NCBI RefSeq assembly: GCF_002863005.1
Contig: NZ_PKDG01000013.1
Span: forward strand, 62,001-126,000
Length of the DNA: 64,000 nucleotides
Direction: 5' to 3'
Source of the DNA: Pseudoxanthomonas sp.
Lineage (GTDB): Bacteria; Pseudomonadota; Gammaproteobacteria; Xanthomonadales; Xanthomonadaceae
The position numbers were made by a program, and so were the translations under genes. Positions within the stretch are counted from its first letter, which is position 1. Every line of letters starts with the position of its first letter. Shown in pieces: positions 56,279-60,552 of the stretch. A model generated the notes under the pieces. It did no database searches. It was not told where the DNA came from and was given only the letters and a program-made list of their open reading frames with translations.

Positions 56279-56310
56279 AAAAAAAAGGGGCGAGCCGAAG
56301 CTCACCCCTT
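56279..56310 (-). terminator. Intrinsic terminator overlapping the rtcB stop
   Basis: On the minus strand AAGGGGUGAGC pairs with GCUCGCCCCUU around a UUCG tetraloop, followed by a U-run. The hairpin contains the last codons and the UGA of rtcB. Confidence 0.85.
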
Positions 56311-57519
56311 GATGCACACCACCTGGCGCAGCGTGTGGACGACCTCCACCAGGTCGCTCTGCGCCGACATCACCGCGTCGATGTCCTTGTAGGCCGCCGG
56401 CGATTCGTCGATCACGCCGGCATCCTTGCGGCATTCGACGTGCGCCGTCGCCTCGCGGTGCTGCGACAGCGTGATCTGCTGGCGCGCCGCGGTACGGCTC
56501 AGTACGCGGCCGGCGCCGTGGCTGCAGCTGTGGAAGCTGTCCGCGTTGCCCTTGCCGCGCACGATGAAGCTCTTTGCGCCCATGCTGCCGGGAATGATCC
56601 CCAGCTCGCCTGCGCGCGCGCTCACCGTGCCCTTGCGGGTCACCAGCAGGTCCACGCCGCCATGCGTTTCCTTCTGCACGTAGTTGTGGTGGCAGTTCAC
56701 CGCCATCTTCTCCAACTGGAACTTCGGCAGACGGTGGCGCATCTCCGCCAGTACGCGCGACATCATCGCTTCGCGGTTCTCGCGGGCGTAGTCCTGCGCC
56801 CACGAGACCGCTTCCACGTAGTCGTCGAACAAGGGCTCGCCTTCCATGAAGAAGGCCAGGTCCTTGTCCGGCAGGTGGAAGCCCAGCACACGATGCGCCA
56901 GTTGCTCGCGCGCCCGCTCGATGAAGTAGTTGCCGATCAGGTTGCCGGTGCCGCGCGAACCGCTGTGCAGCATCACCCACACGGCATCGGCCTCGTCCAG
57001 GCAGATCTCGATGAAGTGGTTGCCGCCGCCCAGCGTGCCGATCTGGCGATCCAGCTTGTCGGTACGGATCTTGCGGTGCTTCTGCTTGATCGCCTCCAGG
57101 CGTGCTTCCAGTCCCGACTGCGTGATGCGCGTGCGGATGCTGTCCGGCAGCTTCCAGTGCTCCCCGCCGCGCCCGTTGCCGACCGGCACGCTGCGCTCGA
57201 TGCTCGAGCGCAGTTGCGCCAGGTTGTCCGGCAAGTCCTTCGCGCGCAGCGTGGTCCGCACCGCAGCCATGCCACAGCCGATGTCCACGCCGACCGCCGC
57301 CGGAATGATGGCGCCGCGCGTCGGGATGACCGAGCCCACGGTCGCGCCCTTGCCCAGGTGCACGTCGGGCATCACCGCGACCCACGGGCCGACGAAGGGG
57401 ACGGCCGCGATGTTCCGCAGCTGCTCGTGGGCGCCCTGGTCCAGGGGTACGCCGCGCACCCAGCCCTTGATCGGCGTGGTGCTGCCCTCGGCGTGCAGCA
57501 GTTCAAACGTAGTGCTCAT
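56302..57519 (-). CDS. rtcB: RNA-splicing ligase RtcB
   Basis: 405 residues from 57519, with AAGGAAC upstream. Active-site motifs are VMPDVHLGKG, the metal Cys82 in GVDIGCGMA, GGGNHFIE, HSGSRGTGN, and the guanylated His334 in SCSHGAGR. RtcB joins 2',3'-cyclic phosphate or 3'-phosphate RNA ends to 5'-OH ends with Mn2+ and GTP. Broken tRNA anticodon loops are a main substrate class. It is the last gene of the minus-strand series: tRNA-like RNAs, slipin, uncharacterised gene, rtcB. No rtcA or rtcR is in the window. Confidence 0.96.
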   Translation of the reverse strand: MSTTFELLHAEGSTTPIKGWVRGVPLDQGAHEQLRNIAAVPFVGPWVAVMPDVHLGKGATVGSVIPTRGAIIPAAVGVDIGCGMAAVRTTLRAKDLPDNLAQLRSSIERSVPVGNGRGGEHWKLPDSIRTRITQSGLEARLEAIKQKHRKIRTDKLDRQIGTLGGGNHFIEICLDEADAVWVMLHSGSRGTGNLIGNYFIERAREQLAHRVLGFHLPDKDLAFFMEGEPLFDDYVEAVSWAQDYARENREAMMSRVLAEMRHRLPKFQLEKMAVNCHHNYVQKETHGGVDLLVTRKGTVSARAGELGIIPGSMGAKSFIVRGKGNADSFHSCSHGAGRVLSRTAARQQITLSQHREATAHVECRKDAGVIDESPAAYKDIDAVMSAQSDLVEVVHTLRQVVCIKG

Positions 57520-57568
57520 GTTCCTTTTCCTTTCGTCCGCGAGCATCGGCGCCCCGGACGGATCTCTT

Positions 57569-58324
57569 TCATTGCGTGTTGTGGAGTCGATGCACGCGCA
57601 GTTCGCGTGTACCGAGCTGTCGCTTGTGGCGCGCGTAGACCTCGCCACTGCCATAGAGCGCGCGGTCGCCCTGGACGACGTGCCGCCCTGCGCCGCGATG
57701 GCCGTGGGCCACGACGGTGCAGCCTCGCACCACGTCGGTGACGCCTCGGCCACGACCGGCGGGCGGGATCAAGGCCAACTCGACCTCGTACCAGATGCCC
57801 TGCAGGCGGTGCAGCTGACGCAGCGGCCCCAGGTCGATGCGGTCCGGCGTCTGTTCGAGCATCGACCACGTTACCCGTTCCTGCCGACGAAGCTGCTCGC
57901 GTTCGCGATTGCGGCGCAGAAGTCCCGTCGCGGGATCCACGTAGAGCTTCGGTGCCCAGCGGTCGGCCAACGGCGTCGGTTGTCCCCAGCCCTTGAGCCA
58001 GTGCAGCCGGCCATCGATGATCGACAGCCGCATCGCCACGAAATCGGCCAGGTGCTGGTGGATGTGCTGCTGCACGGTGCTTCGCCGATCAATGCCGGCA
58101 CAGATCTCCGAATACACCTTGTCCCACGGCCTGCCGACCTGTCCGTGCAGGTAGCGTTCCAGCGGTCGCAGATTCTCGTTGAGCCATTTCCGGTGCTGGT
58201 GGCGCCAGCGCAGGCTTTCCTGCATCGGCGCGCCCTCATCGTTGGCGTGCGGCGCACGCTCGCGGGCGTAACTTCCTCCGCGTCGCGGCCGCTCCACGAT
58301 GACTTTGAACATGTCGTTGCGCAT
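57569..58324 (-). CDS. Uncharacterised basic protein encoded between slipin and rtcB
   Basis: 251 residues from 58324, with an AAGGACG site. Arg and His are abundant. The best-preserved part appears to be NENLRPLERYLHGQVGRPWDKVYSEI followed by DRRSTVQQHIHQHLADFV (residues ~49-95), then KLYVDPATGLL and an Arg-rich segment. There is no signal peptide or membrane helix. I do not recognise a named domain. Its position between slipin and RtcB suggests an RNA-binding or adaptor role in RNA repair; this is inference. Confidence 0.8.
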   Translation of the reverse strand: MRNDMFKVIVERPRRGGSYARERAPHANDEGAPMQESLRWRHQHRKWLNENLRPLERYLHGQVGRPWDKVYSEICAGIDRRSTVQQHIHQHLADFVAMRLSIIDGRLHWLKGWGQPTPLADRWAPKLYVDPATGLLRRNREREQLRRQERVTWSMLEQTPDRIDLGPLRQLHRLQGIWYEVELALIPPAGRGRGVTDVVRGCTVVAHGHRGAGRHVVQGDRALYGSGEVYARHKRQLGTRELRVHRLHNTQ

Positions 58325-58384
58325 GTGTCGTCCTTTCATCCTTGTGGACCGCGAAGGCCGCGTCCATGCGGCCGCCACGGTTTG

Positions 58385-59503
58385 CTACTTCAATGTCACC
58401 AATTGCTTCAGCACGCCATCCAGGCCGCCGAACACGGTGAGCTTGTCGATCTTCTCGGTGACCTTCTCCAGGGCCTCGAGCTCCTTCAGGCGCATCAGCA
58501 CTGGCGACTCGTCGATCAGCTTCGCGGTGTTGAGCAGGGAACGCGTGGCGTTCGCCTCCTCGCGGCGACGGATGACGTTGGCTTGCGCCGTCTTCTCCGC
58601 CTGCACCACCCCGTTGAGGATCTCCTTCATCTCGCCCGGCAGGATCACGTCCTTCACGCCCACGCCCAGCACCTCGACACCGAGCCCGGCCATCTGACCG
58701 CGCACGTAAGCGAAGATGTCGGCGTCCAGCGAGGCCTTGTCGCCCAGCAATTCGTCCAGCGTCTTGGCAGAGACCGCCTTGCGCAGGCCGTACTGCAGCT
58801 CGCGGTAGACGAAGTCGCCGACCTTCGCGACCTTGGTGCGCGCCGCCACCACGTCGGTGACGCGGGTGCTGGCGGCCAGGTTCACGCGCAGGCTGACCTT
58901 GTCGCGGGTCAGGAGCTCCTGGCCCGAGACCTCGATCGCCTGCACGCGCAGGTCGACGATGTCCACGACCACGTTCTTCTGGAAATTCCAGAAGGCGTAG
59001 CTGCCCGGGGCGAGCGTGCGCTCGAGCTTGCCGTCGATGAACACCAGGCCGGCGAACTCCGCCGGCACATCGGCCACCACCGCCAGCTTCGACAGCGCGC
59101 CCAGCTGGCGCAGGCGCCGCGCGACGGCGGCGTCCACGTCCGGCGTGGCGAGCGCCACCGCCTGCACGTCGACCTTCACCAGGCCGATCCAGTACAGGCG
59201 CCGTGTGCCGGGTGGCAGCACGTCTTCCAGCTTGCCGTTCTTCAGCACCAGGCCCACCTCGTCCACGCCGATGTCGGCGAGGACGAAGGTGTCGCCCAGG
59301 CGCTCGCCGAGGCGCGCGATCAGCGCGTCGACGTCGTGGCCGGCGTATTCCGGTGCCGCGATGTTGAAGGTGCGCACCTCGATCCGACCCATCGGGTCGA
59401 ACCAGCGGTACACGCCGGGCGCGAGCAATTGCTCGAACCGACGGTTGCGATACACCAGGCAGCGCTCGCCGTCACCGATCACGACCCTCTTGGTCCAGAA
59501 CAT
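58385..59503 (-). CDS. Slipin / SPFH (band-7) family protein
   Basis: 372 residues from 59503 with an AAGGAG site nine bases upstream. It has no standard N-terminal membrane helix. The region VVIGDGERCLVYRNRRFEQLLAPGVYRW and the later LAPGSYAFWNFQKNVVVDIVDLRVQAIEVSGQELLTRDKVSLRVNLA are SPFH strands; a helical coil (GEMKEILNGVVQAEKTAQANVIRRREEANATRSLLNTAKLI) follows. Slipins are frequent partners of RtcB in RNA-repair operons. The first ~150 residues repeat the PGxYR/W-type motif, so a tandem arrangement is possible. Confidence 0.9.
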   Translation of the reverse strand: MFWTKRVVIGDGERCLVYRNRRFEQLLAPGVYRWFDPMGRIEVRTFNIAAPEYAGHDVDALIARLGERLGDTFVLADIGVDEVGLVLKNGKLEDVLPPGTRRLYWIGLVKVDVQAVALATPDVDAAVARRLRQLGALSKLAVVADVPAEFAGLVFIDGKLERTLAPGSYAFWNFQKNVVVDIVDLRVQAIEVSGQELLTRDKVSLRVNLAASTRVTDVVAARTKVAKVGDFVYRELQYGLRKAVSAKTLDELLGDKASLDADIFAYVRGQMAGLGVEVLGVGVKDVILPGEMKEILNGVVQAEKTAQANVIRRREEANATRSLLNTAKLIDESPVLMRLKELEALEKVTEKIDKLTVFGGLDGVLKQLVTLK

Positions 59504-59821
59504 GGCGTTGTTCTCCTTGTTGGCTCTGGTGGTTCGATCCGGATCCAATGGATCGCCGCGGTGGATCGAATCCCGCGACGAACGGTGCCCATCGCGATTC
59601 GCGATCGGCGGAAGAAGGTGGAAACGCCCCTGGACGGAGGCGATGCGGGCGATCGGCGCTGTCGGCGGAAGCATCGCAACGAGGGCGCGGTCCATGGACT
59701 GCGTCGAACGCTGCGCGCTTCCGCGTCGAGGGCGCGGTGCCGGCGTCGTCCCCGCTGCGTGCGTCGCCCGACCGCAATCCATCGCGAAGGGACGACACGC
59801 CGCACGGGGCGTTTCCTGGGT
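59504..59821. other. 318-bp spacer between slipin and the tRNA-like modules
   Basis: I see no convincing gene. On the minus strand this could be the leader of slipin: it holds short self-complementary pieces (ATCGCGA-AT-CGCGAT near 59590) and a GGATTCGATCC T-arm-like string near 59560-59575. No recognisable sigma-70 or sigma-54 promoter was found. Confidence 0.5.
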
Positions 59822-59857
59822 GGGACTCGCGTCCCTGATTCCAGATTTACAGTCTGG
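59822..59857 (-). ncRNA. tRNA-like module c: isolated tRNA-Tyr-type anticodon arm plus GNRA hairpin
   Basis: On the minus strand CCAGA-CTGTAAA-TCTGG (59857-59841) is a perfect anticodon stem-loop with U33 and anticodon GUA. Five bases later GGGAC-GCGA-GTCCC (59835-59822) forms a GNRA-capped hairpin. There is no D- or T-arm, so it is not a complete tRNA. Its first CCA coincides with the CCA end of module b. Confidence 0.7.
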
Positions 59858-59928
59858 TGTTGGAGCGGGATTCGAACCCGCGACTCTCGGATTAACTGTC
59901 CGATGCTCTACCCATCTGAGCTATCCAG
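59855..59928 (-). ncRNA. tRNA-like module b: tRNA-Asn(GUU)-like with A33 and weak acceptor stem
   Basis: 74 nt on the minus strand. It has a D-arm GCTC/GAGC with a GG-containing 9-nt loop, anticodon stem TCGGA/TCCGA with loop CAGTTAA, and T-arm GCGGG-TTCGAAT-CCCGC, and ends in encoded CCA. The anticodon would be GUU, but position 33 is A instead of the near-universal U. Only four acceptor pairs (TGGA/TCCA) form. It abuts module a without spacing. These defects argue against translation and for a mimic. Confidence 0.75.
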
Positions 59929-59998
59929 TGGTGGACGAACCGGATTCGAACCGGTGGCCAACGGCATGCGCCGCTGCTCTGCCTCTGAGCTTCCGTCC
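59929..59998 (-). ncRNA. tRNA-like module a: CCA-ended, short anticodon loop
   Basis: 70 nt on the minus strand. It has a 6-bp acceptor (GGACGG/TCGTCC), AA, D-arm GCTC/GAGC with a 7-nt loop, stem AGCGG/CCGTT closing a 6-nt loop CGCATG, T-arm ACCGG-TTCGAAT-CCGGT, then A-CCA. The missing loop base and G at the position of U33 make it unlikely to decode; the loop contains CAU. It is the first of three modules read towards slipin and rtcB. Confidence 0.75.
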
Positions 59999-60338
59999 GC
60001 TCGAGGAGCACCGTCTCCCACGCTTCGGCATACGCCACGGCAGCGCCGCGCGCACCGGACGGGACGCTAGCCCGTACCGCTGTAGCGTGTTCGATCGATG
60101 TTCCCCATTGCCGGCTGTCGCCAACCGGCAATCCGTTCGGGCGCGACGCGCCCTTGTGGGTGTTCTCTCCATGTGCAGCCCGCGTCGGGGCATCACGACG
60201 CAGCGCACATGCGCCAGTCGCAGCCGCGCCCCTGCATCGGGGCGCACACGCGCGCTACCCGGATGCCCCAGGGCGGAAAGGAACTTCCGTGGTGGAAAGA
60301 AACGAACCTCGATGCATGCGCATCCTCCGCGAACGCTG
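59999..60338. other. 340 bp with no gene recognised, upstream of the tRNA-like modules
   Basis: This should contain the promoter of the tRNA-like/rtc unit on the minus strand, but no clear -10/-35 or -24/-12 box could be picked. One hairpin is evident at 60107-60132 (ATTGCCGG / CCGGCAAT, 10-nt loop). Short readings on both strands lack ribosome sites and family-like sequence. Confidence 0.5.
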
Positions 60339-60412
60339 AAAACAAAACGCCCCCGGGTATGGCGACCCGAGGGCGTTCGCGTTCCTCGGGAGATCGGGGT
60401 GGCCGATCTCCC
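60339..60412 (-). terminator. Terminator pair after the small minus-strand ORF
   Basis: On the minus strand a 10-bp hairpin (60412-60388, GGGAGATCGG/CCGATCTCCC) is followed by a strong 13-bp stem (60377-60346, one mismatch) and then TTTTGTTTTC. This is a convincing intrinsic terminator for a transcript from about 60.6 kb. Confidence 0.8.
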
Positions 60413-60429: not shown

Positions 60430-60552
60430 TCAGAAGTCCAGGTGCCGTGCGCGTTCGATATCGCGCAGGTCGCTGCCGTTCGCACGCAGCGCCAGGCCGC
60501 AGCGCGATGGCTGCAGGGCGGGCTTGCTGTCGAAGGAATAGGCGGGCTTCAT
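60430..60552 (-). CDS. Possible 40-residue protein of unknown function
   Basis: Reads MKPAYSFDSKPALQPSRC and ends RDIERARHLDF. A 30-codon upstream extension to 60642 is also open. The ribosome site is weak in both versions. Support comes from the terminator placed 18-90 bp after the stop on the same strand and from codon use like the neighbours. No family is recognised. It could instead be part of a small RNA. Confidence 0.4.
   Translation of the reverse strand: MKPAYSFDSKPALQPSRCGLALRANGSDLRDIERARHLDF

Follow-up and report, generated by a model that had tools for sequence, protein, structure and literature searches.

In bacterial RNA-repair systems, SPFH/Band-7 modules reportedly have a cognate, novel tRNA-like molecule, which Burroughs and Aravind announced in 2016. 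Because of that announcement, the kind of RNA described here is counted as already known. The locus under study lies in Pseudoxanthomonas sp., in a 64,000-nucleotide (nt) stretch of contig NZ_PKDG01000013.1 (positions 62,001 to 126,000), hereafter called the window. Its RNA and genes are all on the minus strand, and coordinates are window positions. With the 2016 systems, as these are said to be built, the locus shares an SPFH gene, an RtcB-type ligase, a tRNA-like RNA beside the SPFH gene and, in some of its relatives, an RlaP-type nucleotidyltransferase. An SPFH gene in an operon with an RNA ligase and a tRNA-like RNA, reportedly the definition of that class, was found in the window and in its family. 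RtcB is widespread in bacteria, and the tRNA-like modules of the conserved RNA in its operon make that RNA a concrete candidate for the damage sensor or the repair substrate. Parts of the system may be new, namely a two-helix domain (J), the tandem arrangement of the modules, their fast-changing loops and an attenuator. A literature search gave no account of J, tandem fast-loop modules or the attenuator, which is weak evidence of novelty as few subscription papers were covered. The first-pass annotation of this stretch, made from the sequence alone, knew of no description of such an arrangement and was partly wrong in view of the 2016 announcement.

Related arrangements have been reported in other bacteria. 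The Salmonella Rsr-RtcBA operon contains YrlA, a noncoding RNA with a tRNA-like domain for which a competitive-inhibitor role was proposed (PMC7790460). An RtcB operon and an RNA with a tRNA-like domain are common to both loci, whereas the partner of YrlA is of the Ro60 type (Rsr), its counterpart in the window is a slipin, and the window has two tandem modules. The window RNA scored 30.3 bits with the YrlA family (RF02553), below the gathering cut-off of 69. A review of jumbo phages treats ROT/TROVE proteins and a tRNA-like partner as a repair platform (PMC7824862). In P. aeruginosa, the PaFlo8 SPFH gene sits among rtcA, rtcB and rtcR, which resembles the window in the embedded SPFH gene; tRNA is nowhere named in the paper, with 0 occurrences (PMC13086221). 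In an Anabaena trcR mutant, rtcB and a slipin gene are among the genes raised and a 26-gene tRNA operon is co-controlled; the differences are that this regulon includes genuine tRNA genes and that its rtcB and slipin are numbered as separate genes (PMC10272220). Tigecycline raises rtcB 252-fold in Acinetobacter baumannii (PMC7652931). Induction of the window operon by translation stress would fit the A. baumannii and Anabaena reports.

ARAGORN and Rfam agree on two minus-strand tRNA-like modules (59999-59930 and 59930-59856). The first, TLS1 (59929..59999), scores 41.6 bits with RF00005 and the second, TLS2 (59855..59930), scores 49.2 bits, the gathering cut-off being 29 bits. They stand head-to-tail, and 59930-59929 belongs to both. 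The anticodon-type arm of TLS1 is closed by the tetraloop GCAU; TLS2 has the loop CAGUUAA and a 4-bp acceptor stem. An Rfam scan of the window at gathering cut-offs found tRNA only, with no T-box or other riboswitch. The relatives examined comprised 11 of the protein encoded between slipin and rtcB together with slipin matches at E<=1e-20 in 73/299 genomes of the order. At least one ARAGORN call lies 5' of slipin in 69/81 rows, with the window counted twice. These calls are mostly end to end, 340-970 nt ahead of slipin, and differ in their anticodons. Alignment of the relatives revealed a longer conserved RNA consisting of a 5' hairpin, P0 (60107..60132, by RNAalifold on relatives), the J domain (60023..60082), TLS1, TLS2, a free anticodon-like arm, H3 (59841..59857), and, 3' of it, a GNRA-capped hairpin, H4 (59822..59835). 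The first-pass annotation had placed the modules correctly and had also noticed the isolated anticodon arm, which has a perfect 5-bp stem and a 7-nt loop, CUGUAAA (59857-59841). It had ended the array at 59998, which is too short: counted with its control region, the conserved RNA reaches about 60552.

The cloverleaf of TLS2 is supported by comparison. In 29 aligned sequences, chosen from 38 of which the other 9 were left unaligned, 99.2% of cells are paired and 14/18 pairs show double changes, compared with a shuffled mean of 6.6 pairs and at most 8 in slid controls. The J domain, the diagnostic part of the RNA, was modeled from 33 chosen sequences (covariance model R1; 71.4 bits in the window). 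Changes on both sides occur in 14/20 of its pairs, and covariation is 0.532 vs 0.196 when shuffled. Compensatory changes had been proposed in advance as a check, as had conservation of the modules beside rtcB in relatives, which was named as a point on which the idea could fail. Both were observed, the modules being kept by slipin and mostly near rtcB.

A module parser was run on 154 RNAs and found two modules in 135, three in 5, one in 11 and none in 3. The 14 RNAs with fewer than two modules were excluded, and of the 140 left 10 duplicates were dropped, leaving 130 distinct RNAs. Some second modules outside the family (e.g. L057 and L063) look mis-parsed yet are counted. Because the parser selects stems, its pair counts lean towards a cloverleaf; the 29-sequence alignment is the fair test. 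The acceptor stem of TLS2 has about four pairs, with six or more in only 23/130 RNAs, while TLS1 has at least six in 92/130. CCA follows the acceptor strand directly or one base later in 53/130 TLS1 and 28/130 TLS2. The modules were thus rightly described at first pass as tRNA-like and CCA-ended in the window, and the CCA part is not conserved among relatives. The short TLS2 acceptor stem, the unconserved CCA and the variable loops agree with its view that these are not tRNAs. Compared with a tRNA gene, TLS2 has the cloverleaf and as a rule lacks the 7-bp acceptor stem and CCA end; neither module preserves the tRNA-type anticodon loop of 7 nt, U33 and constant identity.

The anticodon-type loops vary widely. 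TLS2 loops take 88 different forms in the 130 RNAs, and 103/130 have 7 nt. Among these 103 loops there are 33 triplets, with R37 in 100, Y32 in 92 and U33 in 62. Only 36/130 TLS1 loops have 7 nt and 43/130 are tetraloops, 22 of them GNRA-type. Stop-reading triplets occur in 3/65 distinct loops. Turnover was estimated from 44 pairs of family loci that have no RNA in common, although the pairs are not phylogenetically independent. The TLS2 loop differs at 116/306 positions and the TLS1 loop at 103/244, while the TLS2 D and T stems are nearly fixed (12/792). Four-fold degenerate sites of slipin differ at 1241/8097. The TLS2 loop therefore changes at 2.5 times the four-fold rate (bootstrap 2.0-3.0), and it lies above the four-fold value in 35/44 pairs. 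In an earlier set of 52 pairs, which included some genomes twice, comparison of the loop with the spacer 3' of H4 gave a ratio of 1.5-2.1. The TLS2 anticodon loop (142/363) changed about twice as fast in that set as the D loop (94/466) and the variable loop (52/257) of the module.

H3 behaves differently. Its hairpin was found in 126/140 loci and a 7-nt loop in 99/140, counted without a shuffle control over a set that still includes 10 duplicates. The 99 seven-nt loops have U33 in 88 and R37 in 94, and 53 read CUGUCAC or CUUUCAC. The H3 loop is fairly constant, in contrast to the fast TLS loops. UGU occupies loop positions 33-35 in 48/99, as in tRNAs with GUN anticodons. A GNRA hairpin corresponding to H4 was found within 110 nt in 106/140 loci, likewise without a shuffle control.

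Three ideas about what the loops might recognize were tried and rejected. GU anticodons are the target class of colicin-E5-type nucleases. The window has GUU and GUA, but GU is no rule, occupying positions 34-35 in only 8/65 distinct TLS2 loops. For kissing between TLS1 and TLS2 loops the counts were 42 vs 32.7 of 140 with 3-mers (17/500 shuffles as high) and 8 vs 6.1 with 4-mers (139/500 shuffles as high). Complementarity of the loops to the leader is at chance for 6-mers (22 vs 20.3) and 7-mers (4 vs 3.6; n=111), which disfavors a guide role in cis; guides, besides decoys and damage sensors, were among the functions suggested at first pass. For 5-mers there is a small excess (81 vs 72.7 of 111; 2/200 shuffles as high).

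Searches for such systems can use the J domain as a tag, and at E<=5 it had no matching family in Rfam 15. J is present in 76/81 sources. The J search was negative in the other five, L012 (which lacks slipin), L042, L060, L076 and L078. Genome searches with J only gave matches in 12/369 genomes of the class and 14/398 of the phylum, own relatives included. There were 17 matches outside the order, all of which were retrieved. In 15/17 a slipin begins 450-1520 nt after J in the same orientation. In one of the two remaining loci, L117, the contig ends 515 nt past J, and the other, L122, has no slipin and the lowest score (28.9 bits). ARAGORN calls place a tRNA-like module after J in 14/17. Ten neighboring proteins were scanned in the four outside loci L106, L109, L114 and L118. 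RtcA is near the RNA in 3/4 (L106, L114 and L118) and RlaP in 2/4 (L114 and L118); two L109 proteins were assigned no family in the scan. L118 also carries a second, divergent RtcB and an RF-1-domain gene on the same side as RlaP (L118:368-2318).

Linkage to RtcB was examined in the family of the window, taken as Xanthomonadaceae from the near relatives Pseudoxanthomonas and Lysobacter. J occurs in 97/297 genomes and RtcB, among the matches listed, in at least 130/297. Among those matches, 96 genomes have both, 1 has J only, 34 have RtcB only and 166 have neither, so that RtcB accompanies J in 96/97 genomes vs 34/200 without J. The Fisher test of this association ignores phylogeny, and the family set includes genomes that supplied sequences to the model. 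Among the matches listed, at least 91/97 genomes have rtcB in the same orientation as J and 1.6-4.2 kb further downstream, with none listed at that distance for the remaining six.

The RNA is preceded by a region with the anatomy of an attenuator. A candidate leader open reading frame (ORF) of 40 amino acids (60430..60552), whose peptide is poorly conserved and whose stop position is conserved, is followed by leader hairpin 1:2 (60388..60412; 4/8 pairs changed on both sides in an alignment of 24 chosen sequences). A strong intrinsic terminator, 3:4 (60378-60345; 60338..60378 with its T-rich tail), stands 5' of the RNA, 262 nt ahead of J and after both the ORF and the hairpin (60412-60388). A candidate antiterminator, CCGAGG:CCTCGG (60367..60389), would be mutually exclusive with the terminator. 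Both control hairpins appear in the minimum-energy fold (z -4.53). The two together covary, with double changes in 6/18 pairs and 0/500 shuffles as high. Neither hairpin includes the GAGG of the antiterminator among its counted pairs, yet GAGG is nearly invariant; in the window's own fold, some of it is paired with sequence further 5'. The exact pattern of the control region occurs once in the host genome. An ATG ORF of at least 25 codons with its stop 68-92 nt before the end of the terminator stem was found in 90/99 loci, vs 10/99 on the reverse strand and 14.5/99 in shuffles. In a set of 161 loci that contains genomes taken twice, a custom scan without a shuffle control found a terminator within 700 nt 5' of J in 135/161. 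The terminator sequence motif is present in 122/161, and the 39 loci without it are mostly outside the family. CCGA(G/A)G lies within 40 nt 5' of the motif in 116/122 loci, with a hairpin between the two in 109/122.

As is familiar from leader-peptide attenuators, the region has a short ORF before the terminator, paired hairpins and a terminator with a candidate competing antiterminator. Unlike in those systems, the peptide is not conserved and, by eye, has no run of a single amino acid. For this reason we infer that the region may sense the occupancy by ribosomes in general and not the supply of a single amino acid.

Control appears to differ elsewhere. A regular expression for a sigma54 -24/-12 promoter within 250 nt of J matched 0/161 loci, window included. 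The expression is strict, finding the E. coli and Burkholderia sites and missing those seen by eye in Citrobacter, L112 and L114. Just ahead of the RNA, E. coli and Burkholderia have a sigma54-like site instead of the attenuator, and in Citrobacter rtcR adjoins slipin (L225:2960-6913). These sites and the rtcR neighbor suggest that control is lineage-specific while the RNA and slipin are constant. The E. coli locus is an island of slipin and a nucleotidyltransferase between rluF and lysC (L223:5262-7715), and a 589-nt leader query was matched over at least 80% in 1620/5426 genomes. In Burkholderia cenocepacia (L224), TLS1 is apparently reduced, by eye, to an acceptor and T-arm.

Together these results suggest a stress-controlled RNA-repair operon with a structured leader, in which the RNA is a partner of slipin and RtcB. 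We hold this explanation tentatively, at a probability of roughly 45%. A ribosome stalled near the stop of the leader ORF would cause the attenuator to let RNA polymerase pass, as the conserved anatomy suggests. The resulting transcript would bear J, the tandem tRNA-like modules, the anticodon-like arm and the GNRA hairpin, an architecture that the comparison supports well. Whole or processed, this RNA may form with slipin and RtcB a particle that handles cut tRNAs, as the linkage of the genes hints. More speculatively still, its tRNA-like bodies may present anticodon-type loops to tRNA-cutting nucleases as bait or sensor. The steps flanking the transcript itself, stalling, particle and bait, are increasingly speculative in that order. 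We propose that a bait or sensor role would let the loops turn over fast while the tRNA-like body stays fixed, and a decoy or sensor would fit the fast anticodon loops. The fast-changing loops, set on a tRNA body that stays constant, would then be a readable record of which tRNAs are attacked.

Several observations weigh against this explanation. The minimum-energy fold of the window RNA (z -2.24) lacks two separate cloverleaves, so that the cloverleaf structure rests on the comparison. The antiterminator pairing is present in 97.2% of cells, invariant and with zero covariation, and the antiterminator rests for that reason on conservation only. The fast loops may simply be unconstrained loops: in TLS1, as counted in the 52-pair set, the variable loop (117/338) and the D loop (121/393) come close to the anticodon loop (121/294) in rate. 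Codon bias at four-fold sites in GC-rich genomes may inflate the turnover ratio, which is therefore read as faster change in the TLS2 loop than around it and does not prove selection. Tetraloops replace the anticodon loop on many TLS1 arms, the TLS2 anticodon arm of B. cenocepacia is closed, by eye, by a GAAA tetraloop (L224:4670-4745), and the two observations fit poorly with a universal bait. The E. coli RNA retains, by eye, only a T-arm-like remnant. RtcB is inside the retrieved stretch in only 4/17 loci outside the order (L106, L109, L114 and L118), and 6/25 slipin genomes of other families have no RtcB match; all six belong to family f8, are 87-99% complete and have J at their loci. For both reasons RtcB is not obligatory. 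By analogy, when tRNAs were cut in Salmonella no YrlA fragments were detected, so that the nuclease does not use YrlA as a substrate in that organism (PMC7790460).

The alternative that survives best is a cis operator, in which a protein that binds tRNA (slipin, RtcB or another) recognizes the mimics in its own leader and tunes the operon, the RNA having no role in trans. The RNA is 5' of slipin on the same strand in the loci examined and, in the family of the window, follows an attenuator-like region, much as such an operator would. A tRNA-like operator is carried by the E. coli thrS leader, with which the window shares a tRNA-like leader and from which it differs in its two modules and variable anticodons. 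Anticodon-type operators are expected to keep their loop, however, and under this model the fast loops are left without a reason, as are the size of J, H3 and H4 and the fact that these are conserved. We therefore regard it as possible and, on balance, unlikely. Somewhat more doubtful is an extension of the bait idea to a self-resetting fuse. Anticodon nucleases, invading or self, would cut the bait loops, the leader would be severed or a signal freed, and slipin and RtcB would be turned on. These would then reseal both tRNAs and leader, resetting the switch. The loops would diversify through an arms race with ribotoxins, and a vault-like slipin shell would hold the RNA.

Rather unlikely too is a ribonucleoprotein scaffold only, in which the RNA is a Y-RNA-like structural partner of an SPFH particle, bound through its tRNA-like body as a handle, with an anticodon loop under no constraint. 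The subthreshold similarity to YrlA (30.3 bits, gathering 69), which spans the junction from the TLS1 T-arm to the TLS2 D-arm, would suit such a scaffold, as would the near fixation of the TLS2 D and T stems (12/792), the GNRA tetraloop in place of an anticodon loop in 22/130 TLS1 and the nearly equal speed of the other TLS1 loops. A purely passive handle is at odds with TLS2, whose loops keep 7 nt (103/130), Y32 (92/103) and R37 (100/103), suggesting some constraint, whose anticodon stem covaries fully and whose loop outruns four-fold sites. A processing or stability signal, by which RNase P, RNase Z or the CCA enzyme frees the leader from the slipin-rtcB mRNA, is very improbable; the six or more acceptor pairs in 92/130 TLS1 speak for it, but TLS2, the better conserved module, has a short acceptor stem, and J and H3 are left unexplained. 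On sequence grounds the modules are no ordinary tRNA genes, and extra or decayed tRNA genes, including prophage or integration remnants, are hardly credible: both modules exceed tRNA thresholds, yet they score lowest among the host genome's 42 RF00005 matches, their position recurs with variable anticodons, some of them stop-reading (3/65 distinct loops), their ends abut or overlap, a search of 50,697 phage records gave no slipin match, and the covariation and the stem and loop counts reject real tRNAs and tRNA debris alike.

The genes 3' of the modules are, in order, slipin (58385..59503; SPFH/Band_7, PF01145, E=9e-31), an uncharacterized protein of 251 amino acids (57569..58324) and rtcB (56302..57519; PF01139, E=3.9e-124), the sole RtcB match in the host genome. 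Pfam and NCBIfam bear out the gene order given at first pass, as does a terminator-like hairpin with a T-run 3' of rtcB (56285..56310), which had been called there as a terminator. The slipin model (pLDDT 82.2) has N-terminal beta strands followed by the SPFH domain and long helices, with no N-terminal helix. It matches the folds of stomatin (E=2.2e-14), HflK/C and prohibitin; chains of major vault protein were matched as well, at E about 3e-9 and with a TM-score of 0.39-0.41 by query. On the strength of this model, slipin is possibly a small soluble vault-like shell. The middle protein gave no match in Pfam or NCBIfam and, as a model of pLDDT 69.7, none at E<=0.001 in a PDB fold search; its relatives number 11 records only. 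In 36/83 locus rows rtcB directly follows slipin without it. L016 and L019 have a longer slipin-rtcB gap in which there is no match to the middle protein. Directly past the rtcB terminator lies an inverted repeat with GTGGGAGCGACGTAAGTCGCGA arms (56281-56204), which by eye resembles a REP-type palindrome.

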